From: Humidesulfovibrio sp.
Lineage (GTDB): Bacteria > Desulfobacterota > Desulfovibrionia > Desulfovibrionales > Desulfovibrionaceae
DNA length: 49,806 bases
Reading direction: 5' to 3'
Assembly: GCF_031082295.1 (NCBI RefSeq)
Contig: NZ_JAVHLD010000023.1
Location: 1 to 49,806, forward strand
Under the pieces are notes generated by a model. The model was given only the letters and a program-made list of their open reading frames with translations, searched no databases and was not told the DNA's origin. Shown piece after piece: positions 5,182 through 44,764 of the stretch. The first letter of the stretch is position 1. Every line of letters starts with the position of its first letter. The translations under genes were made by a program, and so were the position numbers.

Positions 5182-5256
5182 TGCTGACCTCGTTGTTAAG
5201 TATATTTTGGAAGCGATCTGCTAGCATGATGGGACATGACTGACAAGGGGAGCATA

Positions 5257-5285
5257 TTGACACAAGCCTCAGGTTCTCTTAAGAA
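5257..5285 (+). promoter_or_regulatory. Sigma70-type promoter of tRNA-Leu
   Basis: TTGACA at 5257-5262 is a consensus -35 box. After exactly 17 bp comes TAAGAA at 5280-5285, a good -10. The tRNA begins 11 bp downstream, so transcription would start just before the mature 5' end. This supports an intact, expressed tRNA gene. Confidence 0.7.
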
Positions 5286-5295
5286 TGCACCTCTT

Positions 5296-5382
5296 GCCGG
5301 GATGGCGGAATTGGTAGACGCAGTGGACTCAAAATCCACCGACCGCAAGGTTGTGGGGGTTCAATTCCCCCTCCCGGTACCA
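5296..5382 (+). tRNA. tRNA-Leu (anticodon CAA)
   Basis: This is an 87-nt class II tRNA with CCA encoded in the DNA. The acceptor arms are GCCGGGA and TCCCGGT. The anticodon stem GTGGA/TCCAC encloses the loop CTCAAAA, giving anticodon CAA, which reads UUG. There is a long variable arm and a T-arm with GGTTCAATTCC. The gene has its own promoter upstream and a hairpin terminator downstream. Phage genes start about 115 bp beyond it, so its 3' half is the obvious candidate attachment site, although no second copy is visible in this window. Confidence 0.96.
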
Positions 5383-5392
5383 CAGTAATACC

Positions 5393-5440
5393 AAGGCTTC
5401 GCAGGCGTACAGAGGGTACGGTAGCGAAGCCTTTATCTTT
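5393..5440 (+). terminator. Hairpin terminator after tRNA-Leu
   Basis: AAGGCTTCGC (5393-5402) and GCGAAGCCTT (5424-5433) are perfect 10-bp inverted arms with a 21-nt loop. They are followed by a T-rich run (TATCTTT), as expected of a rho-independent terminator. The remaining 5441-5496 stretch holds C-rich tracts and no recognisable promoter. Confidence 0.65.
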
Positions 5441-5496
5441 GCACTTTTTCAATTCTGCCCCCCATCTGCCCCCTGTTTATTGCGAACCTTGGCATT

Positions 5497-6849
5497 ATGC
5501 CGGGGGTCGGCATGAAAGCCCCCCACCCCAATCGCGTCATGCCCCACGACCTGGACGCCGAGCAGGCTGTGCTGGGTGGGTGTCTGATGCGCCCAGCCGC
5601 AGCCGTCGACATCCTTGAAGGCGTTTCGCCCGACATCTTTTATTCCCCTGCGCACCGAGCCATTGCTCAGGCCATGCTGGCGATGTTCTCTGACGGGACG
5701 CCGCTTGACTTGGTGACGCTGTCTGACAGGCTCGCGGCCCTGGGCAGTTTGGTGCGAGCCGGTGGGCCGGTGTATCTGGCCGAGTTGGCCAGCTCTCCCA
5801 TAAGCGTGGCCAACGCCCGCCACCATGTGGGCATCGTGCGCGGAGCTGCCCAGCGTCGGGCCATGATCGAGCTAGGCATGGGGCTTTGCGATGCGGCCTT
5901 TGACCCAACCGCCAGTCCGACTGAGTTTGCGGCACATGCCCAGAAGACCATAGACGCAGTCCTGGAGGATCGCGTCAACGTGCCCAGCCAGCGCCCCAGC
6001 CAAGTGGCTTTTGACGCCCTGGCCTACGTGGAACGCCTTAAGGGCGGTCATGGCGATCTGATCAAGTCCTCCATCTACGACCTGAACGCCCTCATCGGTG
6101 GCTACGCTCCGGGAGAAACATGCGTACTGGCCGGACGGCCTGGGGCCGGGAAGACCGCCTTTGCTCTGTGTGAGGCGGCACACGCCTTGGACAAGGGCGT
6201 GCCTGGCGGCATCTTCTCCTTGGAGATGAGATCCGTGCAGTTGGCCCTACGTTTATTTGCCAGGCAGGGCGGGGTTGACGCGCAGCGTTTCCGTGATGGT
6301 GATTTCACGGACGCAGACATGACCAAGGTAATGGGCGGGGTTCACTGGCTTGGGCAATTGGACCCGCGCCTGCGTCTTTGGGACAGGCCAGGCCTCACCA
6401 TTCAGGAGTTTCGCTCCCAGGTCCGCAAGTGGAAGCGCGAGATCGGCATCCGCTGGGTCATCATCGACTACCTTCAGCTCATGCGCGCGGACCAACGGTG
6501 CAGTTCGCGCGAGCAGGAGGTGGCCGAGGTCTCGCGCGCCATCAAGAACACCGCCCTGGAATACGACGTGGCTGTGATCTGCCTGGCCCAGCTCAACCGC
6601 GATGCCGACAAGACCAAGCGCCCCCTTCTCTCGCAGCTCCGCGAATCCGGCGCGGTCGAAGCTGATGCGGACATCATACTCTTTCTTGTTCCCTGGGACA
6701 CGCGAGGCAAGGGCGTGGTCAGGGAGATCGAAATTGACGTGGCCAAGGGTCGTAGCAACCGCACGGGCACGGTCAAGGTCGACTTCCAGCGATCGTTCCT
6801 GCGGTTCGTGAACCAGGACTATCTGCGGAAAAACGAGAGAGGGCTCTGA
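5497..6849 (+). CDS. dnaB: Replicative DNA helicase, DnaB family
   Basis: The 450-aa protein has the DnaB layout. An N-terminal domain begins PHDLDAEQAVLGG (about residues 17-29), followed by a linker. The RecA-like motor has Walker A GRPGAGKT at 213-220, FSLEM at 240-244, Walker B WVIIDYLQLM at 320-329, and AQLNRDADK followed by LRESGAVEADADIILFL near the end. These are hallmark hexameric 5'-3' helicase motifs. It would unwind phage DNA after loading by the initiator encoded just downstream. The start is uncertain: ATG 5512 follows a GGGGGT box and may be preferred to 5497. The stop overlaps the next small ORF as TGATG. Confidence 0.92.
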   Translation: MPGVGMKAPHPNRVMPHDLDAEQAVLGGCLMRPAAAVDILEGVSPDIFYSPAHRAIAQAMLAMFSDGTPLDLVTLSDRLAALGSLVRAGGPVYLAELASSPISVANARHHVGIVRGAAQRRAMIELGMGLCDAAFDPTASPTEFAAHAQKTIDAVLEDRVNVPSQRPSQVAFDALAYVERLKGGHGDLIKSSIYDLNALIGGYAPGETCVLAGRPGAGKTAFALCEAAHALDKGVPGGIFSLEMRSVQLALRLFARQGGVDAQRFRDGDFTDADMTKVMGGVHWLGQLDPRLRLWDRPGLTIQEFRSQVRKWKREIGIRWVIIDYLQLMRADQRCSSREQEVAEVSRAIKNTALEYDVAVICLAQLNRDADKTKRPLLSQLRESGAVEADADIILFLVPWDTRGKGVVREIEIDVAKGRSNRTGTVKVDFQRSFLRFVNQDYLRKNERGL

Positions 6850-9058: not shown

Positions 9059-9188
9059 GCAAACTTAAAACGACCGTAAAGAGGCAGCATAATAATGCTT
9101 AAAAACGTTTGCTTTCGCGCCGTGAATCAGGCACAAAAAAGCCGTGGGAACGGTTTTGACGCAGCGGACCTGAAAAACGGGGGCGAAC

Positions 9189-9797
9189 ATGGCGACCATA
9201 GCCTATTTGCGGGTGAGCACGGACAAGCAGGACATTTCGAACCAGCGACTGGAAATTCTCTCCTGGGCCAACCGGGAAGGCGTGCAGATCACGGACTGGA
9301 TGGAGCGCGAGATGTCCTCGCGGCGCTCGGCCAAGGAACGCGGCCTGGAGGAGCTTGCCGGTCAGCTTGCGGCTGGGGACACGCTTGTGGTGGCAGAGCT
9401 GTCGCGCCTGGGGCGCAGCTTGGGCGAAGTGGTGCAGACCGTGGACAAGCTGGCCGCCGCCGGGGTGGGGTTGGTGACGCTCAAGGAGAACATCCGCGTC
9501 AACGGCGGCAAGCGGGATGTGCAGGGCAAGATTCTGGTGGGGCTCTTTGGGCTTCTGGCCGAGATAGAGCGCGACCTCATAAGCGAACGGACCAAGGCGG
9601 GCTTGGCGCGGGCGCGGGCCGAGGGCAAGACCCTAGGGCGGCCCAAGGGCAGCACCGGCAAGTCGGTCCTGGACGGTCGGGAGTCGGAGATCAAGGATTT
9701 TCGCGCCAAGCGTGTGAGCAAGGCCAGCCTGGCGCGCATCCTCGACGTTTCGGACACCACGCTGATCCGCTTCATGCGCTCGCGCAAGCTGGAGTAG
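9189..9797 (+). CDS. Small serine recombinase (resolvase/invertase family)
   Basis: The 202-aa protein has the full small serine recombinase layout. MATIAYLRVSTDKQD places the nucleophile at Ser10. RLGRSLGEV, IRVNGGKRDVQGKILVGLFGLLAEIERDLI and SERTKAGLARARAEGKTLGRPKG complete the catalytic domain and long helix E. A C-terminal HTH (KASLARILDVSDTTLIRFMRSRKLE) binds DNA. Start ATG 9189 follows GGGGGCGAAC. It is not a large phage serine integrase. It could resolve dimers, invert a segment or act on the chromosome junction. No paired inverted sites are obvious nearby. Its place between the two terminase subunits is unusual. Confidence 0.88.
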   Translation: MATIAYLRVSTDKQDISNQRLEILSWANREGVQITDWMEREMSSRRSAKERGLEELAGQLAAGDTLVVAELSRLGRSLGEVVQTVDKLAAAGVGLVTLKENIRVNGGKRDVQGKILVGLFGLLAEIERDLISERTKAGLARARAEGKTLGRPKGSTGKSVLDGRESEIKDFRAKRVSKASLARILDVSDTTLIRFMRSRKLE

Positions 9798-29753: not shown

Positions 29754-32700
29754 ATGCCCCAGACGCAGTTGGACAGCGACGTATTCGGGCTCTACGCCGA
29801 CCCGAACTTTGCAAGCGAAAGCCCGGAGTTCAAGAGTGATTTCTTGAGCCAGTACTTTGACCAGCAGGTTGCGCCACGGCTTGAGCAGGTCGGCGGGGTG
29901 AACCTGGCGGATTCGCGTCAGCGCTTCGTCAAGGCCCATACCCTGGGGCCGGACTATGACCCCGAGGTGGCCTCGCTCTATGCAGAGAGGCCGGACTTTG
30001 CGACACAGAAGCCGGAGTTCCGGGAAAAGTTCCTGGGCAAGCTGTTCGACCAGAAGATGCGGGCAAGCGGCCAGTACGTGGAGCCGGGCACGCTCAGGGA
30101 CGCGCGCGAGGCCTATGTCGCGCGCAACCTGACGGATGCCGACCGGGGCGACCTCTACGGCGTGCTCTCCTTTGCCAAGGACACGCTCAAGGCCCTGCCG
30201 CGCCAGGTGGGCACCACATTGCTCCAGGCTGGGCGCCAGGGCTGGGGCTTCCTTGATGCCCACTTGCACGAGGGGGCGCTGTCCCAGACCTTCGAGCCTT
30301 ACAACAAGATCAGCGCGGACGGCAGCGACTACACCGATAAGTCGCGCGCCATCAAGGAAGGCGCGGACAACCTGCGCGATCTGCGCTACGCCGGGCACCC
30401 GATCCTTGGCAAGGGCTCGTATTTCAGCCCCACGGACGCGGCAAGCTCCGCCGGGTATGGCCTGGCCTCAAGCGTTCCCGCGCAGGTCGGCGGCCTTGTC
30501 GCTGGCCCCCCGGGCGCTGCGATTGGTGCCGCTGCGGGTGCCCCCGTTGCTTTCCTCTCGCAGCGCGACGAGTTTTTGTCGAACGTGCTGGAGAAGGCCA
30601 ACGCGGAGCTGCAAAAGACTGAACAGCGCAGGCTCACCCAGGAGGAAGCCGACGCCCTTGTCGGCAAGTTCAGCGACGCGGCCAGCCGTTACGGTGCCTG
30701 GGAAGCCATTCCCGAAATGGCCTCTAATATGATCTTCGGTTCCGTGCTGGGCAAGGTTGTGCATGGATTTGCGGGAAAGACCATGCTCACCAGGGCCGCC
30801 AAGACCATAGGTGCCGAGGCCCTTGACTTTGCTGGAGAGCACGCGAGCGAGACGGCCTCACAGTGGGGTCAGGGCAAGGAAGAAGCTGCGGCTGGATTGC
30901 GTGAGAAGGCTCCGACGCTGCTTGAGGCCTACAAGGAACAGGCCCCCGTCACCAACGCCCTGTTCGTCGGAACCCGTGGGACGGGCCTGGCGCTTGGCAA
31001 GGCCGCAAACAAGCTCGGCATCCTTAAAACCGAGCCCGCCCTGGCCCCCGGCGAGCACAAGGACCTGCTCAACGACGCGCCCGCAGCCGAGCCGAAGCCT
31101 GCGGCCCCGGCCCAGGACTACTATGCCGAAGACGCATTGCGCAGCCGCTACCAGGAGGCGCACAGTGCCGCCTTCCCCACGGCCAGCGAACTTTTCCGGC
31201 CGGAAGACAGCGCGCGCAGCCCCTTGGCCTCCGCCGACACCCAGGCCGGCCTCGGGTTGGGGCTGGTTGAAAAGCCCGCGCAGCCCTCCGTAACCAGGGA
31301 TCTGCTGACGCAGCCGCTCGCGCCGACTGCTGGCGGTATTGGCCTCGGCCTTGACCTGGCCCCGGAGGTTGTGCAGGCACTGTCCCGGCCCTTCTCCGCG
31401 CAGGAGTTGGCGGCCACGGCCCTGGAGCGCCCCGAGCTGGCCCAACCCGCGCCGCTGGCCCAGCCTGTTGCAGTGCAACAGCCCCCGGCCCAGATGCAAC
31501 AGGATTCAGTTGCACCCCTGCAACAGGCCCCGGCAGCCGGGCCGCAGGGCACTCCCGTTGCCCAGCCTGGACCCGTGCAACAGGCCCCGGCCCAGCAGCA
31601 GGGCAGCCCAGCCTCCCAGGCCATGCGTGCAGAGCAAGACGCCATCAAGGCCAGCTTTGCGGCCCTGCCAGTACCTGAAACCATCCTGCGCGCCGACGGC
31701 AAGCCCTTCCCGACCAAATCGGCGGCAGAGTCCCAGGCTGGTGTGCTGCGCCGCAATGGCCGTTTTGCCACGGTAATGGCCAATCGGGCTGGGGGCTTTG
31801 TCATCGAGGCCCGCGAGGGACTGTTTGAGGACTCGGACACAGGCTACGCAGTTAAGCAGGCCGTGGAAAACAGGGATGCAAAGACCCTCTGGGACTACCT
31901 GCGCCTGGATACCAACAAGAACTCGCGCGAGTTGTTCTATCGCCTGACCGGCACCCAGCCGACCAAGACGCAGCGCGATCTGCGCGCGGCTATAGACGCC
32001 TGGTCCAGCGCAGGCGATCAGGCAGGGCAGGGTGAAGCGGCGGGGGAAAGCACCGCGCCTGTCGCTCCTGGCTCGCCCGTGCCCGCCGCTCCGGTCGCGC
32101 AGCACACCGGCCTGGACGCCGAAACCCAGCAGGCGAACCTGGCCGCCAACGAGGATCTGCGCGCCAGGGGAGAGAAGGTTGCGCATGTGGTCCGGCGCGA
32201 GAACCCTGGCGGACGCCCCGTGCTGGAGGCCTTCGACGATTCCGGGCAGCTTGTGGCCCACAAGGCAGGCCCCGGCGGGCGCGGCATCGACGCGATCTTG
32301 GTGGAGAAGGGCTACTACCCCGGCAACAGGCGCAGGCAGTTCGCCGTGCCCAAGGACTGGAGCCCTAGCCGCGAATATTTCGAGGGTGGCCAGCCGCAGG
32401 GCGCAGCCTCTGCCGAAGCCTCTGCGGCCGCACAGCCGCAAGGCGTGGACAACAACCCCGAAGCCGCCCAGGCCGCGCTGCCTCCCGGCCCCAAGACGGT
32501 GGCCAGCAACGTGGCCGAGGCCCTGGCCAAGGGCGAAAAGTTCACCTGGCGCGAGTTGCAGGCCTGGGCCAACGAGGGCTTTGGCGGCACACAGGCGGAA
32601 GGGCGGTGGAACATCAAGGAAGCCTACGACGCCATGGAAATGGGCGTGAACCAGTACCTGGCCACGCGCGGCCTGAATCCCGGCGAGGCGGACGCCAAGG

Positions 32701-35700
32701 CCATGAAGGCCATGGTCAAGGAGATTGAGGACCACGTGCTGGCCCTTCTGCCCACGCAGACCAAGCGCACCGAGGAGCAACTCGAGTTCCAGCAGTTCTC
32801 CACGCCGCCGCACCTGGCCGCCGTGGCCGCCTGGGTGGCCAGGCCCAGCGCAAAGGATGTGGTGTTGGAGCCAAGCGCGGGCATCGGCGGCCTGGCCATG
32901 TTCGCCAAGAACGCCGGGGCCGACGTACACGTGAACGAGCTGGACCCGCGCCGCCGGGCGCTCTTGTCCGCCCTGGGCTTTTCCTATGTCACCGGCGAGA
33001 ACGCCGAGCAGCTCCACAACATCCTGCCCGAGGATGTAAAACCCACGCTCGTCATTATGAATCCGCCGTTTTCGTCCACCGCCGGGCGCATGAAGGGTCA
33101 GCGCAAGACCAAGAACGTGACGGCGCACCTGGACCAGGCATTGGAAAGGCTGGAGCCCGGCGGGCGCTTGGTGGCTATCCTCTCCCCTGGCATGGGCGCG
33201 GACAAGGCGCACATGGCTGAGTGGTGGCGAAAGACCAGGGAAGAGAATACCCTGCGCGCCAATGTCTACCTCGATGGCGAGATATACAAGAAGTACGGCA
33301 CCAGCTTCGACAACCTCATGGTGGTCATTGACAAGGTGCCACCTCATGGTAATGACTATGTAAACATCGAATGCAAGAACCTGAACGAGGCCATAGACGC
33401 CTTGACCGAGGTGCGCGATGCCCGAGCAAATTCCGCAGAACGAGTCTCCCCTGAACCGGGCGGCCAAGAAGGCCTTGAAGCAGGCCGGACAGCAGAGCTG
33501 GCCGGAGAGCCTGTACGCACTCCAACTGGCGCACTGGGCGCTGGAGACGGGGGCAGTGAAGGCCAAGGACCCGGCGTTGGAGGAGTACGTGGAGACGCTG
33601 CTCTACCGGCGCACGCCGGAGCACGGGCAGAGGGCGATTCTCGTCCAGGTGGAGGACGCGAGCCCCGAGGTGCCCGTGGACCACAGTCCCGGAATGAGCC
33701 CGGAGCGGCTGGCGGCAGCGATCTTGGACAATCTCTCCATGAGCCTGGCGGAGCAGAACCCGGCCTACATGAGCGCGGAGCGAGTGAACATGACGCGCGC
33801 CCGGTAGAGGTCGAGGCCGTCTCGCACAAGGTCGAGTCCCAAGGCGAGATCACCGAAGCGCTTTTCGAGTCCTACCGCCCCCAGCGCGTCCGCGTGAAGG
33901 GCGCGAAGCCCCACCCCACCCCCCTGGTGCAAAGCGCGGCCATGGCCGCCGTGGAGCCGCCTGCGGCCACGTACGCTCCGCATCTGCCCCGTGCCGCTGT
34001 GGAGTCTGGCGCGCTGTCCGATGCGCAGCTCGAACAGGTGGTCTACGCTGGCCAGGCCCACGCCGACCTGCTGCCCGACGGCTCGCGCCGGGGATACTTC
34101 ATCGGCGACGGCACGGGCGTGGGCAAAGGCCGCGAAATCTCCGGCATCATCCTGGACAACTGGAACCAGGGCCGAAAAAAGGCCGTGTGGGTCACGTTCA
34201 ACGGCAGCCTGTTCGAGGATGCCGGGCGTGACATGCGCGGCATTGGCGATGATTCGGGCAAGCTGTTCCAGTTGGCCGACACCAAGCTTGGCGAGGACGT
34301 CAAGCGCGGTGATGGCGTGCTCTTTACCACCTACGCCACGCTGCCTCAGCTGCCCAAGGGCGCAGGCAAGGCCGGGAAGGAAGCCTTTTCGGGCGGTCGC
34401 CTGGACCAGATAGAGAAGTGGCTGGGCAAGGACTTTGATGGAGTTCTGGTCTTTGACGAGTCGCACAAGATGGGCAACGCCATCGAGGTCGAGGGCGCGC
34501 GCGGCAAGAAGCCGCCTGCCCAGCAGGCCCTGGCTGGCGTGGAGCTGCAAAAGCGCCTGCCAAATGCCCGCGTGGTCTACGTTTCGGCCACGGGCGCAAC
34601 CGAACCCAGCAACTTAAGCTACCTGGAACGCATGGGCCTGTGGGGCGAGGGCGCGCCGTTTGCAAACAAGCGCGACCTTGTCAACGCCATCGAGGCGGGC
34701 GGCGTGGCTGCCATGGAGCTGGTCTCCCGCGACCTCAAGGCCATGGGCGGCTACATGGCGCGCACGCTTTCTTATGATGGTGTCACCTACAGCCGCCTGG
34801 ACCACGAGCTAACGGAGTACCAGCGCAAGGCCTACGACACCTATGCCCGTTCGTGGCAGATCGTGTTGGAGAACATCAACGACGCCTTGGAGGAGACCGG
34901 CCAGGACAAGAACGGCCAGGCCAAGAGCGCGGCTATGAGCCTGTTCTGGGGCAACCACCAGCGCTTTTTCGGCCAGGTGCTCACCAGCATGACCATGCCG
35001 AGCGTCTTGGCCGACATCAAGGCCGAGCTGGCTGCCGGGCATTCCTGCGTGGTGCAGCTCACCAACACCAACGAGGCCGCCCAGGAGCGCGCGCTGACGC
35101 AAGCCAGCATCAGCGGCGAGGACCTGGCCAGCCTGGACATCACCCCCCGACAGATGCTCATGGACTATGTGCGCCGGGCCTTCCCCATTCATCAGTTCGA
35201 GCAGTACCTGGATGAGGACGGAAACGAGCGCTCGCGCATTGTGAAGGATGCGGGCGGCAGCCCGGTGGAGAACCGCCAGGCCGTGAAGCGGCGCGACGGG
35301 CTCCTTGAAAAGCTCGGCGCGCTCAAGGTGCCCGGCAACCCGCTGGACATGATCGTGGAAGAGATCGGCCCGGACATGGTGGCCGAGGTCACGGGCCGCT
35401 CGCGCCGGGTGATTTTGGGCAAGGAGGAGCGCCGGGGTACCGCCGCCGGGGCCAAAGAGGCCCAGGACTTCATGGACGGCCGCAGGCGCGTGCTGGTGTT
35501 CAGCCAGGCGGGCGGCACGGGCCGGAGCTACCACGCCGACAGAGGGGCCAAGAACCAGGAAAAGCGCATCCACTACATCCTCCAGCCCGGCTGGCGCGCC
35601 GACGCGGCCACGCAAGGTTTGGGCCGCACCCACCGCTCAAACGAGGCCCAGCCCCCGCACTACAAGCTCGTCACCACGGACCTGAAGGGGCACAAGCGCT

Positions 35701-38700
35701 TCACCAGCTCCATTGCCCGCAGGCTGGACCAGCTCGGCGCGCTCACCCAGGGCCAGCGCCAGACCGGCAGCCAGGGCCTGTTCAGCGCCGCCGACAACCT
35801 GGAGAACACCCTGGCGAACGACGCCTGGGTGTGGCTGGCCGAGAGCATCTACTCCGGCAAGGTTCCGGGCGTGGACTACAAGGAGTTCGTCAGCCAAACC
35901 GGCTTAAAGTTGGAAAAGGAGGATGATACTGGACTTCGGTTCGACCCTCCGCCCATTAAGCAATTCTTAAACCGCCTGCTGTCCATGACCGTTGATTTTC
36001 AGAACCAGGTCTTTGACGCCTTTGAGTCGCGCCTGCGCGACGTGTACGCCAATGCCGAAGCCCACGGCAACCTGGACACAGGCATGGAGACGCTCAAGGC
36101 CGAGCGCATTGACGTGGTGCGCGAGGAAGTGCTGCACACTGATACGCGCAGCGGGGCGGAGACAAAGGCCCTCGCGCTCAAGGTGCATGTGCTGCGCGAC
36201 CTCATGGACCATGCCCGGCTTTTGCGCGAGCACGGTGAGCCCTCGGAAGGCTGGTGGCGCAACAAGAACAGCGACAGGGTCTATGCCGCTTACTCTGGCG
36301 GAGTGAAACAGAACCTGGACGGTGAGATGGAGGAGAAGGTCCTGCTGCGCGGGGTGAACGCTAAGAGCCCCAACCGTGTCGGCATGGACATGCTCCACGA
36401 GAACTACGCGGCCATGGACCCCAAGGAAGCCGCCACGGCCTGGGACAAGGCCTTTGCCGAAACCGAAAAGACCAAGGAACAGGAACGCTGGCTTTTGACT
36501 GGCATGCTCCTGCCCGTGTGGAAGCAGATCAGCGGCAAGGCCAACGTCTACCGACTCCAGGACAGCCAGGGGCAAAGGCACCTGGGCCGCCTGCTCTCGC
36601 GTGATGAATACAACCAGACCCGCAAGAACATGGGCCTGGGCGTGGACCTGCCGAACTACAGCCCCAAAGAGGCGCTGGCCGCGATTCTTAAGGGCCGCAA
36701 GCTGTCGCTGCGCGGGGGGTACGAACTTGAGGCCCGGCGCGTTTCCGGCGAGATGCGCATCGAAGTTACCGGCGAGGCCGTGGCCTGGCAGATGGATCAG
36801 TTGAAGAAGTTCGGGGCCTTCTCCGAGATCATCCAGTACCGCACACGGCTCTTTGTGCCCACGGGTGAGAAGGGCGTGGCCTTCATGGAGCGCATGCTGC
36901 CCACGCATCCGCTGGTGGGCGATGAGCAGTCATACTCCCGCGCTTCGGCAGACGTGCATTTCTCTGTTCGCCCCGAGGACGGCGCGCCTGGCCAGGGCAT
37001 GAGCGCGAACAAGGTTCGCGGGGCCTTGCAGGACATCCAGGCCAAGGCCAAGAACGCCAGGCCTCTCACTGTTGTGCAGACTTTCGAGGACCTTCCCCAG
37101 CGCATCAAGCGCGAGGCGCGCGCCCAAAAGGTTTCCGTGGTGGAGGGTTCGTACGACGCCCATGACGGCACCGTGTACATGGTGGCCGACGCCCTCACGA
37201 GCCGCAAACGGGCCGTAGAGGTGTGGATGCACGAGCAGTGCGCCCACCGTGGCCTGCGCGGCCTGTTTGGCGACGACCGGCGCTTTGGCCAGTTCCTGCG
37301 CGGCGTGTTTGAATCCGCCGGGGGCAAGGCCGCCTTCCGCGAGATTTCCGATACCTACGGCTTCACCCTCACCAACCAGGCGGATCAGCTCCGCGCGGCT
37401 GAGGAATACCTGGCCCGGCTCACGGAAAAGGTGCGATTGGAGGAGGCTCTCACCGCTCCAGAGGCGCGCGTGTGGCGGAAGCTGGTGCGTTTCGTGAAAG
37501 AAATGCTCAGGACGCTGGGCGTGCGGGTGAACTTCTCGGATGCGGAGATCGAGGGTGTGGTGCGCGAGGCCGTGCTGTGGACCTTCGAGGGTGGCCAGGC
37601 AGCAACGGCAGAAGGGGTGCGCTTTTCCATCCCCTCGCGGGGGCAGAGCAAGGCCCTGGATTCGGCCCTGGATAAGATCGGCGCGCCGCGCACCGGCATG
37701 CGCGAGCGAGTGGCGGCCTTGCGCGACCGTTTGCGCGCGGAGTCCGAGCAGGGCGTGTTCGACCGCTTCGCCAGCTTGCGCACAGTGGATGAGGCCGCAG
37801 GCGTTCAGAGAGCGGAGGACTCGGCCTACATCGCGGCACGCATGACCACGAGCTTGGGCGACGTAATGACCGCCATTGTGCAGCACGGCGCGCCCATCTG
37901 GCGTGATGGTGCTGTGGACGTGGACGGCATGCACAAGGGCTTTGCCAGCGTGTTCAAGCCCGTTGAGGGCGAGATTGACCGCTGGTGCGCCTGGATGGTG
38001 GCCAAACGAGCGGAGAAGCTGGCCGCCGAGGGCCGCGAGAATCTGTTCACGCCGGAGGAGATCAAGGCGCTTAAGGGCCTGAACGCCGGGCGCGAGCGCG
38101 ACTATGACCAGGCCTGGCGCGACTACGTGCGCTTCAAGACGAAGGTTCTGGATTTCGCCGAGGCTGCTGGCGTCATCGATCCTGCTGGCCGAGTGCTGTG
38201 GGAGCACGACGAGTACATTCCCTTCTACCGTGTGACGGAACAAGGCGAGATCACCGGCCCCAAGGACAAGAAGGGCCTGGCCAACCAGACCTCCGGCATC
38301 AAGACCCTCAAGGGCGGAACCAGCAACATCGGTGATCCCTTTGAAAACATTGTCCGAAACTTCACACACCTGGTGGACGCGGCCATAAAGAACCATGCCA
38401 TGGACCTGGCCATGCAGAACGCCGTGGCGGCGGGCGCGGCCTTTGAAACGGGGCTCAAGTGGGAGGCTGTGCGCCTACCTGCCGGGGCCATGCAGGCCGC
38501 CCTGCGCAAGGTCTTTGGCGACAAGGAATCTGTCTGGTCCATGAACGATGCCCAGCGCGCCAGTCTCCAGAACGTGTTCCACCTGGCAAGGCCCACGGGG
38601 AGTGACATCGTGCACGTGCTGCGCGGGGGCAGGCCGGTATACTACCAGGTGGGCGACCCGCTTCTGCTGCGTGCGCTGACGGCCATGAATCAGGCAGCCT

Positions 38701-40283
38701 GGAACAACTGGGGCATGCGTGGCATGCGCTTCTTCAAACGTCTGCTGACGCGCGGCGTGACGGCCACGCCGGACTTCATGCTGCGCAACCTGACGCGCGA
38801 CACGTTGAGCGCCTGGGCGGTGGATGGCTCGGGCTCCTTCAAGCCCGTGCTGGGCTCTCTGCGGGGGCTGGTGAAGACGCTCAGGCAGGACGAGGACACC
38901 GTACACATGCTGGCCGCCGGAGCCTCATTCCAGGGTGGCCACGCCCTGGGGCACGATCCTGCGGCGGCCAAGATCATGGTGGACCGGCTCATGAAGAGGC
39001 ATGGCATAGCCAAGGACTCGGTGCTCGACACCCCGAAGAAGCTGGCCAGCTTCATGGGCAAGGCCTGGGCCTGGTGGGAGGAGAAGGGCGGGGCCGTGGA
39101 GAACTCCACGCGCGCGGACATCTACGCCCAGATGCGCAGGAAGGGTGCCACGCACCTGGAGGCGGCCTATGAGGCCAAGAACATCATGGACTACTCCATG
39201 CGCGGCGACTGGCCCGCTATCCGCTTCCTGTGCGAGGTCGTGCCGTTCTTCGGCGCGCGCCTGACCGGTCTGCACCGCCTGGGCCGGGGCTACATGGAGA
39301 ACCCGCGCGCGTTCCTGATGAAGGGCGGTCTGGTGGCCCTGGCATCAACGCTGCTCTACCTGGCCAACCGCGATGATGAGGAGTTCCAGGCCCTGGAGGA
39401 CTTCGATCGGGACAACTACTACCACTTCTTTGTGGACGGCGGGCACTATCGCCTGCCCAAGCCCTTTGAGGTGGGCGCGATCTTCGGCACCTTGCCCGAG
39501 CGCATCGTGGAGCAGTTTGTGGATGACAAGGCCACGGGCGCGCTGTTTGCGGAGCGCATGGCCTACATGCTCACCCAGACCTTCAATGTGGGTCTGCCCC
39601 AGGTTGCTGCCCCGTTCATGGAAGAATGGGCGAACAAGGTCGCCTTCACTGGTCGGCCCATCGTGAGCCAACGCCTGGCGCGGCTGCGCCCCAGCGCGCA
39701 GCGCGATCCCTGGACCAGCGCCACGGCCAGCGAACTGGCCAAGGGCTTGGATGACTCCGGCCTGCCCCTGCCCGAGGCCCTGCGCAGCCCCAAGCGCCTG
39801 GAGCACCTGGTGAACGCCTTCTTTGGGACGCTCGGCTCGTATGTGCTTTCCGCCGCCGACATGGTGACGGAATCCTTGTATGACTATCCCGACCGCCCGA
39901 CTGCGCGTGCCTCGGACATGCCCCTGGTGCGCAGCTTTTACCGCGAAAGCCCGGCCCGGCACAGCAAGCAGGACACGGAAATCTACGAGATGATCCGCGA
40001 GGTGCAGACCCTGTACGCCACGGTGAAGGATCTACGCCGAACAGGGGATAAGGAGCGGGCGCAGGAGATCATTGAGGGCAACCGGGAGAAGCTGGGGTTG
40101 CGCCGGGCGGCAAGCCAGGTGGAGCTGCGCCTGGCCGAGTTCAACAAGCAGGCGCGGCTGATCCACGCCGACCGGGGCATGAGCCCGGAGCAGAAGCGCG
40201 AGCGCCTGGACACGCTGACGCAGAAGCGCAATGAGTTTGTGAACCGGGCGTACGACAAGATGCGGGAGCGTATGGACAGATAG
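29754..40283 (+). CDS. Giant 3509-aa polyvalent ejection protein (methylase-helicase-zincin-LPD38)
   Basis: ATG 29754 follows TAGGAGCCCGCG. In order: a helical/membrane-active N-terminus (VPAQVGGLVAGPPGAAIGAA near residue 240); a Pro/Gln linker; a class I adenine-type methylase with EPSAGIGG at 1039-1046 and NPPF at 1103-1106; a disordered span (1222-1352) overprinted by another gene; a strawberry-notch/SNF2-like SF2 helicase with GDGTGVGKGR around 1450, DESH at 1568 and the arginine-finger motif QGLGRTHRSN from 1954; a zincin motif HEQCAH at 2493-2498; and a C-terminal LPD38-like region (about 3000-3200) with helical tail. This is the plan of phage polyvalent proteins, injected with DNA to counter host defences. 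Confidence 0.88.
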   Translation: MPQTQLDSDVFGLYADPNFASESPEFKSDFLSQYFDQQVAPRLEQVGGVNLADSRQRFVKAHTLGPDYDPEVASLYAERPDFATQKPEFREKFLGKLFDQKMRASGQYVEPGTLRDAREAYVARNLTDADRGDLYGVLSFAKDTLKALPRQVGTTLLQAGRQGWGFLDAHLHEGALSQTFEPYNKISADGSDYTDKSRAIKEGADNLRDLRYAGHPILGKGSYFSPTDAASSAGYGLASSVPAQVGGLVAGPPGAAIGAAAGAPVAFLSQRDEFLSNVLEKANAELQKTEQRRLTQEEADALVGKFSDAASRYGAWEAIPEMASNMIFGSVLGKVVHGFAGKTMLTRAAKTIGAEALDFAGEHASETASQWGQGKEEAAAGLREKAPTLLEAYKEQAPVTNALFVGTRGTGLALGKAANKLGILKTEPALAPGEHKDLLNDAPAAEPKPAAPAQDYYAEDALRSRYQEAHSAAFPTASELFRPEDSARSPLASADTQAGLGLGLVEKPAQPSVTRDLLTQPLAPTAGGIGLGLDLAPEVVQALSRPFSAQELAATALERPELAQPAPLAQPVAVQQPPAQMQQDSVAPLQQAPAAGPQGTPVAQPGPVQQAPAQQQGSPASQAMRAEQDAIKASFAALPVPETILRADGKPFPTKSAAESQAGVLRRNGRFATVMANRAGGFVIEAREGLFEDSDTGYAVKQAVENRDAKTLWDYLRLDTNKNSRELFYRLTGTQPTKTQRDLRAAIDAWSSAGDQAGQGEAAGESTAPVAPGSPVPAAPVAQHTGLDAETQQANLAANEDLRARGEKVAHVVRRENPGGRPVLEAFDDSGQLVAHKAGPGGRGIDAILVEKGYYPGNRRRQFAVPKDWSPSREYFEGGQPQGAASAEASAAAQPQGVDNNPEAAQAALPPGPKTVASNVAEALAKGEKFTWRELQAWANEGFGGTQAEGRWNIKEAYDAMEMGVNQYLATRGLNPGEADAKAMKAMVKEIEDHVLALLPTQTKRTEEQLEFQQFSTPPHLAAVAAWVARPSAKDVVLEPSAGIGGLAMFAKNAGADVHVNELDPRRRALLSALGFSYVTGENAEQLHNILPEDVKPTLVIMNPPFSSTAGRMKGQRKTKNVTAHLDQALERLEPGGRLVAILSPGMGADKAHMAEWWRKTREENTLRANVYLDGEIYKKYGTSFDNLMVVIDKVPPHGNDYVNIECKNLNEAIDALTEVRDARANSAERVSPEPGGQEGLEAGRTAELAGEPVRTPTGALGAGDGGSEGQGPGVGGVRGDAALPAHAGARAEGDSRPGGGREPRGARGPQSRNEPGAAGGSDLGQSLHEPGGAEPGLHERGASEHDARPVEVEAVSHKVESQGEITEALFESYRPQRVRVKGAKPHPTPLVQSAAMAAVEPPAATYAPHLPRAAVESGALSDAQLEQVVYAGQAHADLLPDGSRRGYFIGDGTGVGKGREISGIILDNWNQGRKKAVWVTFNGSLFEDAGRDMRGIGDDSGKLFQLADTKLGEDVKRGDGVLFTTYATLPQLPKGAGKAGKEAFSGGRLDQIEKWLGKDFDGVLVFDESHKMGNAIEVEGARGKKPPAQQALAGVELQKRLPNARVVYVSATGATEPSNLSYLERMGLWGEGAPFANKRDLVNAIEAGGVAAMELVSRDLKAMGGYMARTLSYDGVTYSRLDHELTEYQRKAYDTYARSWQIVLENINDALEETGQDKNGQAKSAAMSLFWGNHQRFFGQVLTSMTMPSVLADIKAELAAGHSCVVQLTNTNEAAQERALTQASISGEDLASLDITPRQMLMDYVRRAFPIHQFEQYLDEDGNERSRIVKDAGGSPVENRQAVKRRDGLLEKLGALKVPGNPLDMIVEEIGPDMVAEVTGRSRRVILGKEERRGTAAGAKEAQDFMDGRRRVLVFSQAGGTGRSYHADRGAKNQEKRIHYILQPGWRADAATQGLGRTHRSNEAQPPHYKLVTTDLKGHKRFTSSIARRLDQLGALTQGQRQTGSQGLFSAADNLENTLANDAWVWLAESIYSGKVPGVDYKEFVSQTGLKLEKEDDTGLRFDPPPIKQFLNRLLSMTVDFQNQVFDAFESRLRDVYANAEAHGNLDTGMETLKAERIDVVREEVLHTDTRSGAETKALALKVHVLRDLMDHARLLREHGEPSEGWWRNKNSDRVYAAYSGGVKQNLDGEMEEKVLLRGVNAKSPNRVGMDMLHENYAAMDPKEAATAWDKAFAETEKTKEQERWLLTGMLLPVWKQISGKANVYRLQDSQGQRHLGRLLSRDEYNQTRKNMGLGVDLPNYSPKEALAAILKGRKLSLRGGYELEARRVSGEMRIEVTGEAVAWQMDQLKKFGAFSEIIQYRTRLFVPTGEKGVAFMERMLPTHPLVGDEQSYSRASADVHFSVRPEDGAPGQGMSANKVRGALQDIQAKAKNARPLTVVQTFEDLPQRIKREARAQKVSVVEGSYDAHDGTVYMVADALTSRKRAVEVWMHEQCAHRGLRGLFGDDRRFGQFLRGVFESAGGKAAFREISDTYGFTLTNQADQLRAAEEYLARLTEKVRLEEALTAPEARVWRKLVRFVKEMLRTLGVRVNFSDAEIEGVVREAVLWTFEGGQAATAEGVRFSIPSRGQSKALDSALDKIGAPRTGMRERVAALRDRLRAESEQGVFDRFASLRTVDEAAGVQRAEDSAYIAARMTTSLGDVMTAIVQHGAPIWRDGAVDVDGMHKGFASVFKPVEGEIDRWCAWMVAKRAEKLAAEGRENLFTPEEIKALKGLNAGRERDYDQAWRDYVRFKTKVLDFAEAAGVIDPAGRVLWEHDEYIPFYRVTEQGEITGPKDKKGLANQTSGIKTLKGGTSNIGDPFENIVRNFTHLVDAAIKNHAMDLAMQNAVAAGAAFETGLKWEAVRLPAGAMQAALRKVFGDKESVWSMNDAQRASLQNVFHLARPTGSDIVHVLRGGRPVYYQVGDPLLLRALTAMNQAAWNNWGMRGMRFFKRLLTRGVTATPDFMLRNLTRDTLSAWAVDGSGSFKPVLGSLRGLVKTLRQDEDTVHMLAAGASFQGGHALGHDPAAAKIMVDRLMKRHGIAKDSVLDTPKKLASFMGKAWAWWEEKGGAVENSTRADIYAQMRRKGATHLEAAYEAKNIMDYSMRGDWPAIRFLCEVVPFFGARLTGLHRLGRGYMENPRAFLMKGGLVALASTLLYLANRDDEEFQALEDFDRDNYYHFFVDGGHYRLPKPFEVGAIFGTLPERIVEQFVDDKATGALFAERMAYMLTQTFNVGLPQVAAPFMEEWANKVAFTGRPIVSQRLARLRPSAQRDPWTSATASELAKGLDDSGLPLPEALRSPKRLEHLVNAFFGTLGSYVLSAADMVTESLYDYPDRPTARASDMPLVRSFYRESPARHSKQDTEIYEMIREVQTLYATVKDLRRTGDKERAQEIIEGNREKLGLRRAASQVELRLAEFNKQARLIHADRGMSPEQKRERLDTLTQKRNEFVNRAYDKMRERMDR
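33418..33807 (+). CDS. Overprinted 129-aa gene inside the giant ORF
   Basis: This frame lies wholly within the giant gene, shifted by one base. ATG 33418 is preceded by GAGGTGCGCG, a good Shine-Dalgarno. The product reads as a normal folded protein: helical SPLNRAAKKALKQAG, SWPESLYALQLAHWALETG, DPALEEYVETLLYR, then AILVQVEDASPEVP and a C-terminal helix. By hand count about 90% of its codons end in G or C, against about 45% in the giant's frame over the same bases, where the peptide is Gly/Ala/Arg/Glu low complexity. The nested frame is therefore the selected one. No family is recognised. It may be a virion accessory placed between methylase and helicase. Confidence 0.75.
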   Translation: MPEQIPQNESPLNRAAKKALKQAGQQSWPESLYALQLAHWALETGAVKAKDPALEEYVETLLYRRTPEHGQRAILVQVEDASPEVPVDHSPGMSPERLAAAILDNLSMSLAEQNPAYMSAERVNMTRAR

Positions 40284-40553: not shown

Positions 40554-40817
40554 CTACTTCCCTTTCTCCAGCTTCTCGATGAGCGCCTGCACATTGCGCA
40601 TGTTTTCTTCAACCAACTCGCGATAATATGGCGCTTCCGACGTGCTGTATACATCGAATGCGGACGTGTAATGCTTCAGGGCCTCGCGCGCCTTGGCCGC
40701 GTCTTGAGCTTTCTCGGCGAGCGCTTTCAGCGCAGCGCCCAGATTGTTCTGGGTCGCGGCCCAGTTCAGGGGGCCAATAGAACCGCCCCCATGCGCCGCC
40801 AATTCTAGGCGGCGCAT
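40554..40817 (-). pseudogene. Truncated TPR-repeat gene fragment
   Basis: The 87-aa frame contains one recognisable tetratricopeptide unit (PLNWAATQNNLGAALKALAEKA), typical of long multi-TPR proteins where this unit repeats many times. Only the last repeat and a C-terminal helix (YRELVEENMRNVQALIEKLE) remain, so it is the 3' stump of a larger gene. Its 5' side ends in an 18-bp inverted repeat shared with the restriction gene, which marks the break. It is probably not functional. Confidence 0.6.
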
Positions 40818-40825
40818 GGGGGCGG
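40783..40825. repeat. Perfect 18-bp inverted repeat at the prophage-side edge of the RM gene
   Basis: CCGCCCCCATGCGCCGCC (40783-40800) and its exact complement (40808-40825) flank a 7-nt loop that contains the stop codon of the restriction gene. One arm codes the C-terminus of that gene and the other extends past it. There is no U-tract on either side. It could be a bidirectional stem-loop terminator or a junction scar. Confidence 0.9.
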
Positions 40826-43800
40826 GACAGGATGAAGGGGTTCAGGAGGGGCAGGAAGGGCTAGTCCCCCCACGGCACAATAGCTCACGTACTTTTCCTT
40901 GAGCGACTGTCCGTATTCCGGCCGTTTGGAGTGCATGACCTTGAAGCTCTTGAGCAGATAGGCCAGTTCCTCAGGCGTGACGTGGTAGAGCCCGGCCACA
41001 AGGCAGTCGTTGCGGATGCGGAGCATATCCACCTTTTTCGGGGTATCTGGGATGTCCTTCTCCTCGATGCCGAACCGGGCACCAAGCTCGGCGAAGCCGT
41101 CCCGGTTATAGTGCAGGGTCAGGCGCAGGGAGTTGCGGACAAGCTCCTTGTAGACCGCCGTGTCCGTCAACTCGGAATCGGTGGGCTGGGGGAGCGGCAG
41201 GCGCATCAGGTAAGTCTTGTTGACATGGATGCTCACGGAGAAACGCAGAATCCAGTCCACCACGAGGCTATTGAACACGGCTTGAGCAAAAAGCAGGCGT
41301 TCAACTGACACTTCTGAGACGGAGACCTTCTGCTTCCCCTCAAAGCGGTAATATTTGGGGATGGAAACCCATAGGGTATTCTGCGCGCCAACGGCTTGCG
41401 GCACCAGCGCCGTGATGAGCGTCCGCTCGTCGGTGTCGCGGGCGATGTCGCGGAAGCCAAGGCGGAAATAGCCCCGGTCCGGCTTCACGAACTGGCCGAG
41501 GTCTTCCCGGTCTGCCACCCCAACGGCATCCAGGATAGCCAGCTTTTGGTTGGCCAATTTGGGCAGGGGCAAGGCCGGGTAGATGTCGGCAATGAGGCGG
41601 CTTATCTCCTTGCCGCGCAGGTAGTCGTCAAAGACCTCGGGGTTCAGCCAATACTCGGGCTCGGCATAGAGGCTGTCATACTGCCAGACGGAAGCCCCTT
41701 TGTAGAGGGGCAGGTCCTCGGGCCGCCTGCGCTCCCGGAATATTTTCTTGTCGTTGGTGGCATGAAGCTCGGTGCGGAAGTCCAGCCAATCCGGCGAGAG
41801 GGGCTTGAACAGGCCATAGAAACGCCGGAGCAGGTCCAGGTCCGCCCTGCCGCCGCCAACCTCCATAAAGGCCATGTGCCCCGGCGAGGTGGCGCGCACA
41901 TCCTGCACGGAATAGTCGAAGCGGCCTTCCTCCGTGTCCAGCACGCGTGGGTCCGTCAGCATGAAGCGCATTTTGCTTGCGTGGTCCGCGTCGGGGTGGG
42001 TGCGCTCGATTTGGAGCAGGCCGAACTTGTAGCGGACGTCAACATCCGGGAAGAGCAGCTCCCGGTTTTCGAATCCGTCGAAGCTATTGATGCGGTAGCG
42101 CTCCAGGATGTGCTTGCGCAGGGTGTCGGAGCCTTCATCCGTAAGCAGGCCCGTGGGCAGAATGTAGTTGAGCGTGCCGCCGGGCAGGAGCAGGCCGAGG
42201 TTGCGCTCCACAAAGAAGCGGAACAGATTGCCGTCGCCGGAACCGGCGTTCAGTACGTAGGCCGCCTTGTAGTACTCATTCACGGCCTGCACCCAGTCCT
42301 TGTCCTCATCATACTGCTTGCGGATGTGCGGCTTGTCCAACAGGTCGGCCTGCACCTGCGCCTTCTGGCTGTTGGTCATGCTCCGGTAGTTGGAGCGGTA
42401 CTGGCTGAAGAAGTCCGGGTCGAGGAACTTGGTTTTGTCCCACGGCGGATTGCCAACGATGACGTGGAAGCCCTGGCCTTCGCCCGAGGCGAAGACCTCG
42501 GGGAACTCCAGCTCCCAGTTGAAGAAGTGGTACGTGTCCTTGTAGGTCTGAATCCTGAGGGCGAGGGCGGTGTCCTTCTGGTCGAAGAGCTTGCGGGCCA
42601 GCTCGCCGGTCTTGGACAGGAGCTCGGCCTCCCTGGTCTTGCCTTCGTGATGGAGCATCTTGCGCAGGTTCACCAGGTTCAGGGCGTCATCGAGCCGCTG
42701 GAGCATGGGGACGATTTCGTTCTTGTAGAGGGCCTTGGAGCGGTTCACCTCTTCCGGGGTGGTATCCCGGATGGCGCTCAGCTTGGCGAAGACATCGCGG
42801 AGCTTGGTGAACTCCTCCTTGAGGGCGTACTTGAAGAGCTGGTCCTTGTAGCCGCTGATGTAAAAATCGAAATCCGCGATGGTTGCGCCGATGAGCGCGT
42901 TGCCCACCTTTACGTGGTGCTCAATGAAGGACAAGGGCGTGCCGAATACGAAGGTGTCTATCCACAGGGAGAGGTGGGCAAGCTCGATGGCGAAGGGTTG
43001 CATGTCCACGCCGTAGATGACCTGCTTGAGCAAGAGCCGCTTCAGGACAGCGAACTCGTCGATTTCCACGGTGATGCGAAGCGCCGCGAGAGCGGTCTCA
43101 ATTTTCGCCTTCTCGGTCGCGAGCTGGGCCGCCAGGGCCTCGTCCTCGCCCATGTGGTCGAGCGCCTTGCGGGTGATGTAGCTCAAGGCCTCAATAAGCA
43201 GGTGCCCGGAGCCGCAGGCGTTGTCCAGGATGCGCAACTTGAGGATGGAGTCCAGCTTGCCCAACTGGTGGTCGATGGCTTGCCGGACGAGGGGGAAGGA
43301 AAGTTCCGAGGGCGTGTAGTAGCTGCCAGCGGCCTTGCGGGAGTTCTGCGAACTCACAAGATAGAGCTCTCCCTGGGGCAGTCTGCGTTCGTCGTGGATT
43401 TCGCAGAACTTATCCGCGCGCAGGTTCGCCGCGTCGTAAGTGTCGAAGAAGCCCTCCTGGGACTTCCAAACCCCCTTCTCCTTGATGCGGTAGATGATGT
43501 AGCTCAGCTCCTCCTCGGCAACGCGGAACTCGAACTCCAGAAGCCCTTCGTAGATTGCCCCGAGATGTGTCACAGACAGCGTGCGGAAGTCGCGACGGAG
43601 CAGGCCCCCCTGCCAGCAGAACAGGTCTCGCAGGATGGCTTTGAGCAGAGCGTCATCCATGACCTGCGGCTTGGTCAGCAAGGTTGCCCTGCGATTGTCG
43701 AACAGGCCGCCATTCAAGAGTGGGATGCCCAAGTCTGCGTTGCCATCGTTCAAGGTCGCAAATAGCGTTTTCAGGTTGTTCCAGCCCCTATGAGGGGCGG

Positions 43801-44764
43801 CAGGATTCGTCCCAAGACCGTTGTAGAGCTTGCGCAAAGAGAGGTCGGGATATGACGGGTGGGAGTCCAGTTGCTTGGCGAACTTATCCTCGAAAAAAGC
43901 GATGAAGAGCAGACGGAACACGAGGTAGAGGCTGTTCTCGAAGACGAGCCTCAGATTGCTCGGACTGGCGGTCTTGCCCGTGGCCGCGAACAATGCACGT
44001 CCTATGCGTTCGAACAGGGAGTCTTCGCCGTCAAGGCCATAGATGACCTTGCGCAGGTCTTCTTCAACGGCGCGGCGAGCCTGGGCTTCCTGCCAAGCCA
44101 TGACCTTGATGGGGGCGGGCTTCTCGGCTTCGTCCGCCACAAAGTTCGCACGCCGGAAGAAGTGCAGAAAGTACCGGAAGGCTTCAACGTCATCCGCCTT
44201 GATGATGGCCGCGAGGTCGATGCGCAGGTACCGCTTTTCGCTGGTTACTTTGGTGTTGTCGACAAGCCACCACTCCACCGCGTTGCTCAGCATGCCGTAC
44301 TCAAGGCGCGTGTAGCTCAGGTATTCCAGGAGCTGGAGGTAAGGGTTGTTGTCCTTGTCGGCCTTCTTGGTGTCCAGCGCCTTCTTCGCATCCTTCGACT
44401 CGCAAAAAGCGATGATGTCGCCGAGGGCGGTTTTCCGCTCTTCTTTGCCAAGCTCAATGTAGGCTCCAAGGGCCGATGAACTGGGGAACAGGGTCCAGTC
44501 CGGCTTCATCTGCTTCCCATGAACCACCTTGATTTCCTGGTACAGCGGGAACCAGCCGAGGAGCTGAAGGGTCGGCTTGATGACGAAGTCTTCAAGCTGG
44601 GATTCGTTGAGTGCCATGATGTTCTGCGCCGCATAGATCGCCTTCACTTGCGCGAAAACTGGCGAGGAGTCCTCAAGCGCCGGGAGCAGCTTGGGGACAT
44701 CATTCTCGAAGTAGTTCTGCTCGAAAATCTGGTTGGTCACAAACGCATCAAGGGGGTGCGACAT
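40805..44764 (-). CDS. Single-chain restriction-modification enzyme (type IIG/Eco57I-like)
   Basis: The 1319-aa protein starts at ATG 44762-44764 behind GGAGGACTGTAGCC. N-terminal nuclease: an HsdR-like PD-(D/E)xK fold with PD at 88-89 (KPDWTLF) and ESK at 122-124, followed by LLEYLSYTRLEYGMLSN. Helical connector: residues about 200-470. Methylase: RKAAGSYYTPSE at 476-487, motif I DNACGSGHLLIEAL from 514, VIYGVDMQPFAIELAHLSLW, and motif IV NPPW at 772-775, the gamma-class adenine type. The remaining C-terminus would carry target recognition. One polypeptide thus cuts and methylates. It is flanked by direct repeats and adjoins an ABC-three-component operon. It could also belong to a larger multi-gene system whose partners are not here. 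Confidence 0.85.
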   Translation of the reverse strand: MSHPLDAFVTNQIFEQNYFENDVPKLLPALEDSSPVFAQVKAIYAAQNIMALNESQLEDFVIKPTLQLLGWFPLYQEIKVVHGKQMKPDWTLFPSSSALGAYIELGKEERKTALGDIIAFCESKDAKKALDTKKADKDNNPYLQLLEYLSYTRLEYGMLSNAVEWWLVDNTKVTSEKRYLRIDLAAIIKADDVEAFRYFLHFFRRANFVADEAEKPAPIKVMAWQEAQARRAVEEDLRKVIYGLDGEDSLFERIGRALFAATGKTASPSNLRLVFENSLYLVFRLLFIAFFEDKFAKQLDSHPSYPDLSLRKLYNGLGTNPAAPHRGWNNLKTLFATLNDGNADLGIPLLNGGLFDNRRATLLTKPQVMDDALLKAILRDLFCWQGGLLRRDFRTLSVTHLGAIYEGLLEFEFRVAEEELSYIIYRIKEKGVWKSQEGFFDTYDAANLRADKFCEIHDERRLPQGELYLVSSQNSRKAAGSYYTPSELSFPLVRQAIDHQLGKLDSILKLRILDNACGSGHLLIEALSYITRKALDHMGEDEALAAQLATEKAKIETALAALRITVEIDEFAVLKRLLLKQVIYGVDMQPFAIELAHLSLWIDTFVFGTPLSFIEHHVKVGNALIGATIADFDFYISGYKDQLFKYALKEEFTKLRDVFAKLSAIRDTTPEEVNRSKALYKNEIVPMLQRLDDALNLVNLRKMLHHEGKTREAELLSKTGELARKLFDQKDTALALRIQTYKDTYHFFNWELEFPEVFASGEGQGFHVIVGNPPWDKTKFLDPDFFSQYRSNYRSMTNSQKAQVQADLLDKPHIRKQYDEDKDWVQAVNEYYKAAYVLNAGSGDGNLFRFFVERNLGLLLPGGTLNYILPTGLLTDEGSDTLRKHILERYRINSFDGFENRELLFPDVDVRYKFGLLQIERTHPDADHASKMRFMLTDPRVLDTEEGRFDYSVQDVRATSPGHMAFMEVGGGRADLDLLRRFYGLFKPLSPDWLDFRTELHATNDKKIFRERRRPEDLPLYKGASVWQYDSLYAEPEYWLNPEVFDDYLRGKEISRLIADIYPALPLPKLANQKLAILDAVGVADREDLGQFVKPDRGYFRLGFRDIARDTDERTLITALVPQAVGAQNTLWVSIPKYYRFEGKQKVSVSEVSVERLLFAQAVFNSLVVDWILRFSVSIHVNKTYLMRLPLPQPTDSELTDTAVYKELVRNSLRLTLHYNRDGFAELGARFGIEEKDIPDTPKKVDMLRIRNDCLVAGLYHVTPEELAYLLKSFKVMHSKRPEYGQSLKEKYVSYCAVGGLALPAPPEPLHPVPPPCAA
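40808..40848 (+). repeat. Direct repeat copy 1, at the RM gene 3' end
   Basis: This 41-bp segment matches 45092-45132 at 37 positions. The best part, from GGGGGCGGGACAGGA to TTCAGGAG, differs by one base in 31. It lies in the C-terminal codons of the restriction gene, so the two copies bracket that gene. Confidence 0.85.

Follow-up and report, generated by a model that had tools for sequence, protein, structure and literature searches.

The window analysed here, a stretch of 49,806 nucleotides of Humidesulfovibrio sp. (contig NZ_JAVHLD010000023.1), holds a prophage-like region with replication, terminase, head-tail adaptor, major head, tail fibre and internal virion protein genes. A giant open reading frame (ORF) lies 3' of these structural genes and contains, between its methylase and helicase domains, a small ORF in another frame of the same strand. 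The relevant features are:

29754..40283 (+): giant polyvalent ORF, 3509 aa, with methylase, strawberry-notch helicase and LPD38
32859..33233 (+): methyltransferase small-domain match in the giant, residues 1036-1160 (Pfam MTS, E 7.3e-5, 22.9 bits; PHROG DNA methyltransferases)
33381..33437 (+): giant-frame helix with the conserved motif LLEGVR(N/D), here ALTEVRD, overlying the nested Shine-Dalgarno (SD) and start (AlphaFold2 helix 98-116; motif columns from 91 loci)
33408..33413 (+): SD sequence GAGGTG, 4 nt 5' of the nested ATG (read from the sequence)
33418..33807 (+): nested gene, ATG start, 129 aa, +1 frame, predicted all-helical
33462..33785 (+): giant-frame linker peptide over most of the nested gene, predicted disordered (pLDDT <50)
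33909..34841 (+): AAA_34, strawberry-notch-type NTP hydrolase, residues 1386-1696 (Pfam, E 3e-114)
35337..36089 (+): Helicase_C_4, strawberry-notch C-terminal domain, residues 1862-2112 (Pfam, E 1.4e-80)
39375..39929 (+): LPD38, large polyvalent protein associated domain (Pfam, E 4.4e-35)

The MTS score falls slightly below the Pfam cut-off of 23 bits; the methylase is thus weak in Pfam and clear in PHROGs. The giant resembles the DarB-type methylase-helicase dyad of polyvalent proteins, for which strawberry-notch versions, one of them from Methylomonas, and LPD38 as a phage-type domain are named in the part of the source consulted (Iyer et al. 2017, PMC5512222): an adenine methylase is followed by an SF2 helicase in one chain, fused in giant phage and plasmid proteins, and the window giant carries LPD38 as its additional polyvalent domain. 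In the text of that paper the word overlapping is absent and nested appears twice, both times for a hairpin structure; a gene in the linker is not described in the part consulted. Elsewhere in the window, a 789-codon open frame (41396-43765, +) runs antisense to a 1319-aa ORF (40805-44764, -).

The first-pass annotation had proposed a 129-codon frame with its own SD and ATG inside the giant, and its coordinates, length and frame proved right, as did its estimate that about 90% of the third positions are G/C in the nested frame and about 45% in the giant one. Measured GC at codon positions 1, 2 and 3 is 0.68, 0.44 and 0.90 in the nested frame and 0.90, 0.68 and 0.44 in the giant frame over the same bases, while elsewhere in the giant, in 300-base windows clear of the nested ORF, third-position GC is 0.69-0.94. 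A scan of the + strand of the window for same-strand nested ORFs (at least 60 aa, ATG or GTG start, third-position GC difference >0.15, within stop-free stretches >3000 nt) returned this ORF as its sole match.

Searches with single sequences were of little use for collecting relatives: the window's nested protein matched nothing in phage records or IMG/VR, the nested protein of locus L011 nothing in plasmids, and neither the plasmid form of the nested protein nor the helicase alone matched anything in phage records. Among 99 related genomes (own included) the nested protein query found one stand-alone relative, in genome G003, at 60% identity. There is also a weak match in G319 (E 7.4e-4), and the MAG record WSYE01000008.1 contains a near-identical phage; this record and G250 are one and the same sequence (13,001 of 13,001 compared bases identical). 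Queries with the helicase and the methylase supplied most of the relatives. They gave at least 177 IMG/VR loci, a large share of which repeat a single contig; of three IMG/VR relative lists, two comprised the best 80 of 99 and the best 80 of 200. Altogether 188 loci and the window were examined, 175 of which had both methylase and helicase, and removal of 81 exact-containment linker duplicates left 94 distinct loci, the window copy included. Three phages with methylase similarity only (L206-L208, stretches of about 6.5 kb) showed neither helicase nor nested gene.

Methylase and helicase share one frame with zero stops between them in 94/94 distinct loci, and in 92 of them an ORF starts near the methylase end, in the +1 frame every time and 87-163 codons long in the 91 loci tested. 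L103 and L175 are without it. Linkers with the nested gene mostly measure 421-628 nt and those without it 253-412 nt (253 nt in L175), or 988 nt in L103, where the gene gives way to another insert (L103:4013-5001), in frame and several hundred bases long. Two other loci carry additional sequence that could be an intein: L027 has about 1 kb of extra open frame within the conserved helicase start (4977-6001), and a similar insertion of about 1 kb is suggested for L106 by its long linker and the absence of the first helicase part.

From 71 of the 91 loci, the window and L003 (the G003 copy), leaving aside 20 near-copies or divergent loci, a family alignment was built whose profile matches 84/91 nested products, including 13 of the 20 loci absent from its building, and 0/91 giant-frame peptides. 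The nested protein evolves fast, with a mean column identity of 21% over the 73 rows. Since 7/91 linker ORFs are unmatched by the profile (L023, L058, L059, L074, L087, L150 and L157, the last without a match in a separate search of its record as well), a few linkers may house diverged members of the family or unrelated genes in the same housing.

To what extent each frame is held by selection was addressed with a shuffle in which nested codons are swapped among synonyms, so that the small protein is kept and the giant frame is freed; the reverse shuffle does the same with giant codons. The 91 loci tested are the 94 without L001 (the window copy), L103 and L175, and their nested starts were used uncorrected, six of them being corrected by eye for later tests. 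No giant-frame stop was observed in the 91 embedded genes, with a mean of 1.66 expected per gene, and the third frame of the same copies behaves as chance (mean 9.15 stops observed, 9.28 expected). Taking one gene from each of 72 clusters with less than 50% identity to each other, 0 giant-frame stops were observed against 130.1 expected, and in the reverse shuffle 0 nested-frame stops against 106.7. The suggestion that the giant ORF had merely happened to stay open does not fit, because its frame is held open beyond chance.

Pooled pN/pS is 0.49 in the nested, 1.39 in the giant and 1.12 in the third frame over 14 pairs, which were hand-picked from 33 listed and in some cases belong to a common clade. 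Identity in the nested frame never falls below that in the giant frame across the 33 pairs (it is equal in one), in an alignment made in the nested frame, and third-position GC is higher in the nested than in the giant frame in 91/91 loci, among which are nested genes of 43-55% GC. The pooled pN/pS shows purifying selection on the nested frame. Constraint differs between the two frames: in the nested one the encoded residues are conserved, in the giant one chiefly the lack of stops. A giant-frame peptide kept while the nested frame is broken, the pattern that was to speak against a real gene, is the opposite of what was found, as it is the giant peptide that drifts, with the nested one the better conserved of the two. 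Comparison across about 90 relatives points to selection maintaining both frames, and the stretch therefore very probably encodes two proteins at once.

The initiation signal of the nested gene, SD and ATG, is conserved at sequence level. The chosen start is an ATG in 89/91 loci, and an SD match of at least 4 nt precedes it in 85/91, SD itself being one criterion of the choice; at the first +1 ATG, taken without that criterion, the count is 77/91 compared with 427/1676 for control +1 ATGs from the flanking domains. The giant residues over the signal read L-L-E-G-V-R-N/D (second L in 85/91, R in 78/91), and in the AlphaFold2 model they form part of the last helix ahead of the linker. Relatives that lack the nested gene have comparable residues (VLENVRLNR in L191, TLVNVRDSR in L175), so the start signal seems to have been written over an already existing conserved helix at the methylase end of the giant.

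Structure prediction separates the two products clearly. AlphaFold2 gives the nested protein as all-helical with a mean pLDDT of 88.1 and pTM of 0.81, in line with the ordinary helical protein anticipated from its sequence, whereas for the giant peptide encoded by these bases it predicts disorder (pLDDT <50 for segment residues 125-232, blocks of 36-44) between well predicted flanks. Pfam and PHROGs searches with 73 members yielded no recurrent family, each weak match being to a single member (for PHROGs, among the 25 families listed out of 26), and NCBIfam and Pfam searches with six free copies, the window's protein and one plasmid form gave weak single matches with E of at least 0.02. Foldseek returned 0 matches at E <=0.001 in BFVD and PDB. 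A profile search of PDB produced five matches with E from 0.05 to 0.88, which were taken as noise.

The family profile was also run against 395 genomes of the phylum and matched 20 of them (own included) at 22 places. Fifteen of these are stand-alone copies whose flanks, about 1.5 kb in either direction and shorter in L216, hold no methylase or helicase; the remainder are two nested copies in G670, a nested fragment in G653 seen as two overlapping places, the weak and unassigned L226 and L227, and the window. Wider surroundings, 9.7-12.5 kb around eight stand-alone copies and a 20-kb stretch of G003, likewise held no methylase or helicase match. The expectation that relatives would carry the gene on its own was thus borne out, but its placement between a separate methylase and a separate helicase was not, as none of these nine contexts shows the three-gene arrangement.

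These copies provide a matched control. In 15 of them (14 from the phylum search, L216 being omitted for its unclear start, plus L003 of G003) the frame corresponding to the giant holds 113 stops against 118.5 expected, and avoidance of stops is therefore a property of the embedded state. The free copies L213 and L214 show a single giant-frame stop each, and L213 retains the giant motif, as LQEVRDAR, and an SD upstream; this has the look of a recent exit from the giant, but neither stop count is clearly below chance (P 0.43 and 0.06). Stand-alone homologues begin about where the nested start would match. Their surroundings, read by eye (peptide deformylase and fmt, nitrite reductase, sensor kinases), indicate no function; in G495 a chromosomal free copy (L246:2764-3132) lies directly 5' of cytochrome c nitrite reductase-like genes, also by eye. 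In G003 the free copy (L003:9682-10803) has as its neighbour a recombinase-like gene that shares about 76% DNA identity with window positions 9100-9784, in what resembles a prophage remnant.

Plasmids harbor the same arrangement. The helicase occurs in 553 of 72,556 plasmid records, and the nested protein of Methylotuvimicrobium alcaliphilum matches four: Methylotuvimicrobium alcaliphilum 20Z, two Methylomonas and Thioflavicoccus mobilis. In 20Z the nested gene occupies 105153-105497 on the minus strand of plasmid MEALZ_p (NC_016108.1). Among the 13 plasmid loci read, these four have the gene nested, with 0 giant-frame stops and a family-profile match; two of them list the giant, and there the gene table, taken from an incomplete PLSDB table, gives the giant only. 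The other nine, alphaproteobacterial, have no profile match, and their linkers of 295-412 nt retain the third-position GC of the giant (0.70-0.88), some of them with long +1 open frames without family match (L192, L201). As L103, L175 and these nine loci lack the gene, the giant does not always need it. In a helicase tree without L001, L027 and L106 the four plasmids group together inside the phage forms; the presence label needs four changes on this tree, and nesting may still have arisen once.

Computation shows a nested frame that is conserved and under selection, a giant frame that avoids stops, and a start signal, and it predicts a fold for one product and disorder for the other. The best explanation, to which we assign a probability of about 0.92, is that the stretch is dual coding, with a disordered linker of the giant in one frame and a complete small gene, expressed by internal initiation, in the +1 frame. 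The giant frame would supply the linker in a methylase-helicase polyvalent protein of giant size, possibly carried in the virion, and the +1 frame an all-helical protein of about 14 kDa. Ribosomes on the message of the giant would initiate internally at the nested SD and ATG, and the small protein would accordingly be produced in step with the giant, while the open giant frame would let ribosomes pass from methylase to helicase. Actual translation of the nested frame, as well as virion location, is what we infer.

Other explanations fit the data far less well. Programmed +1 frameshifting, in which ribosomes translating the methylase would shift and give it an alternative tail instead of a separate protein, agrees with the +1 register in every locus, with the position of the nested frame 3' of the methylase, and with its being open for more than 10 codons ahead of the start in 37/91 loci. 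In 54/91, however, the nested frame is closed by a stop at most 10 codons ahead of the start, and in 16/91 at most one codon ahead; the frequent ATG and SD and the matching start of the stand-alone homologues speak against it as well, and we consider it very improbable. Hardly any likelihood is left either for the giant not being one chain, with methylase and helicase translated separately and the open linker frame incidental: unconstrained linker residues (pN/pS above 1) with no predicted structure would suit it, but not the complete lack of giant-frame stops in the embedded genes, their ordinary number in the stand-alone copies, and the common frame of methylase and helicase in all distinct loci.

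A chance ORF, produced by codon bias in GC-rich DNA or by paired assembly frameshifts, can be practically discarded. In GC-rich members the giant frame would often be open by chance (P 0.76 for the near-identical L028), and some plasmid linkers without the gene do have long +1 frames; yet the pattern repeats in all 72 clusters, also at 43-55% GC, the nested frame is under purifying selection and has stand-alone homologues, and the nine plasmid linkers lacking the gene keep the GC profile of the giant. The claim that a real overprinted gene occupies the methylase-helicase linker finds agreement among relatives, selection, stop avoidance and fold prediction.

Concerning the history of this dual-coding arrangement, a tree of the small protein (91 rows, 132 columns) places the stand-alone rows in four places inside the nested diversity, and the small gene can therefore exist without the giant. 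The well-supported branches force four changes of state: G003 with the window, L213 with L015, L244 with L012, and 13 rows (12 genes) of family f59. The small gene either departed from the giant on several occasions or both entered it and departed. A de novo origin by overprinting of the linker, with later release, has in our view a little less than even odds against the capture of an older gene. The scattered stand-alone positions, the motif and SD kept by L213 and the compatibility of the helicase tree with a single origin of nesting argue for it; on the other side, the small-protein tree is short, its bootstrap is not settled and its midpoint root serves for drawing only, and the shorter linkers of loci without the gene would also fit capture.

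Complete genes inside other genes are known in phages, as in lambda, where Rz1 is nested in Rz. In phiX174, gene E is fully nested in D in another frame (PMC8227390, consulted in part). The present pair shares with both a complete inner gene with its own start on the same strand, and differs in that the host is a 10-kb polyvalent gene whose frame encodes a predicted disordered linker, in that the pair spans phages and plasmids, and in that free copies of the inner gene exist. Unlike those of E and Rz1, the nested N-terminus (MPEQIPQNESPLNRAAKK) appears by eye neither lipoprotein-like nor membrane-like, and the absence of a signal or lipobox does not fit a spanin of the Rz/Rz1 kind. According to the part consulted of a survey of virus reference genomes, +1 is the commonest frame of same-strand overlaps once those of 1 and 4 nt are set aside, with a median +1 overlap of 14 nt (IQR 8-26), compared with 390 nt, wholly internal, here (PMC8903798). 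A search of the open-access literature, by title and start of abstract, found no paper describing the nested gene.

As for function, stand-alone chromosomal copies persist without the giant, for which reason a giant-dependent subunit is less favored than a small adaptor that works on some common cellular partner, although the adaptor role itself is doubtful. It may be that an anti-defence protein family has a hitherto unrecognised partner.

Overlapping genes are often regarded as short, as recent in origin or as restricted to very small genomes. The present one has persisted in dsDNA phages and plasmids that are very divergent, and its two frames divide the labour cleanly, one encoding a protein predicted to fold and the other a linker predicted to be disordered; the free copies of the inner gene reveal directly the selection for openness. 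The nested gene is hidden by annotation, and more such genes are probably present in giant phage proteins. We tentatively propose, as a generalisation rather more apt to fail than to hold, that disordered linkers of giant polyvalent proteins house small +1 genes which move between phages and plasmids, where they are nested, and chromosomes, where they are free, the giant frame keeping only its openness and the inner gene its function.

Additional candidate nested +1 ORFs were noted in giants among the relatives. Among the 23 listed are five with third-position GC above that of the giant frame (L016:9785-10198, L018:3404-3856, L071:2659-2970, L063:2344-2592 and L064:2320-2592); the first four show no family match below E 0.01, and two of the nested candidates in relatives have no match in phage records. 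A second nested +1 ORF, with the strong SD sequences GAAGGAGG and AAGGAG, is located in the N-terminal part of two different giants (L049:1621-1866 and L041:1453-1602). Its two products are similar, sharing MPK.YEAMRD.F, and this family would be another case if linkers do house small genes in the way proposed.
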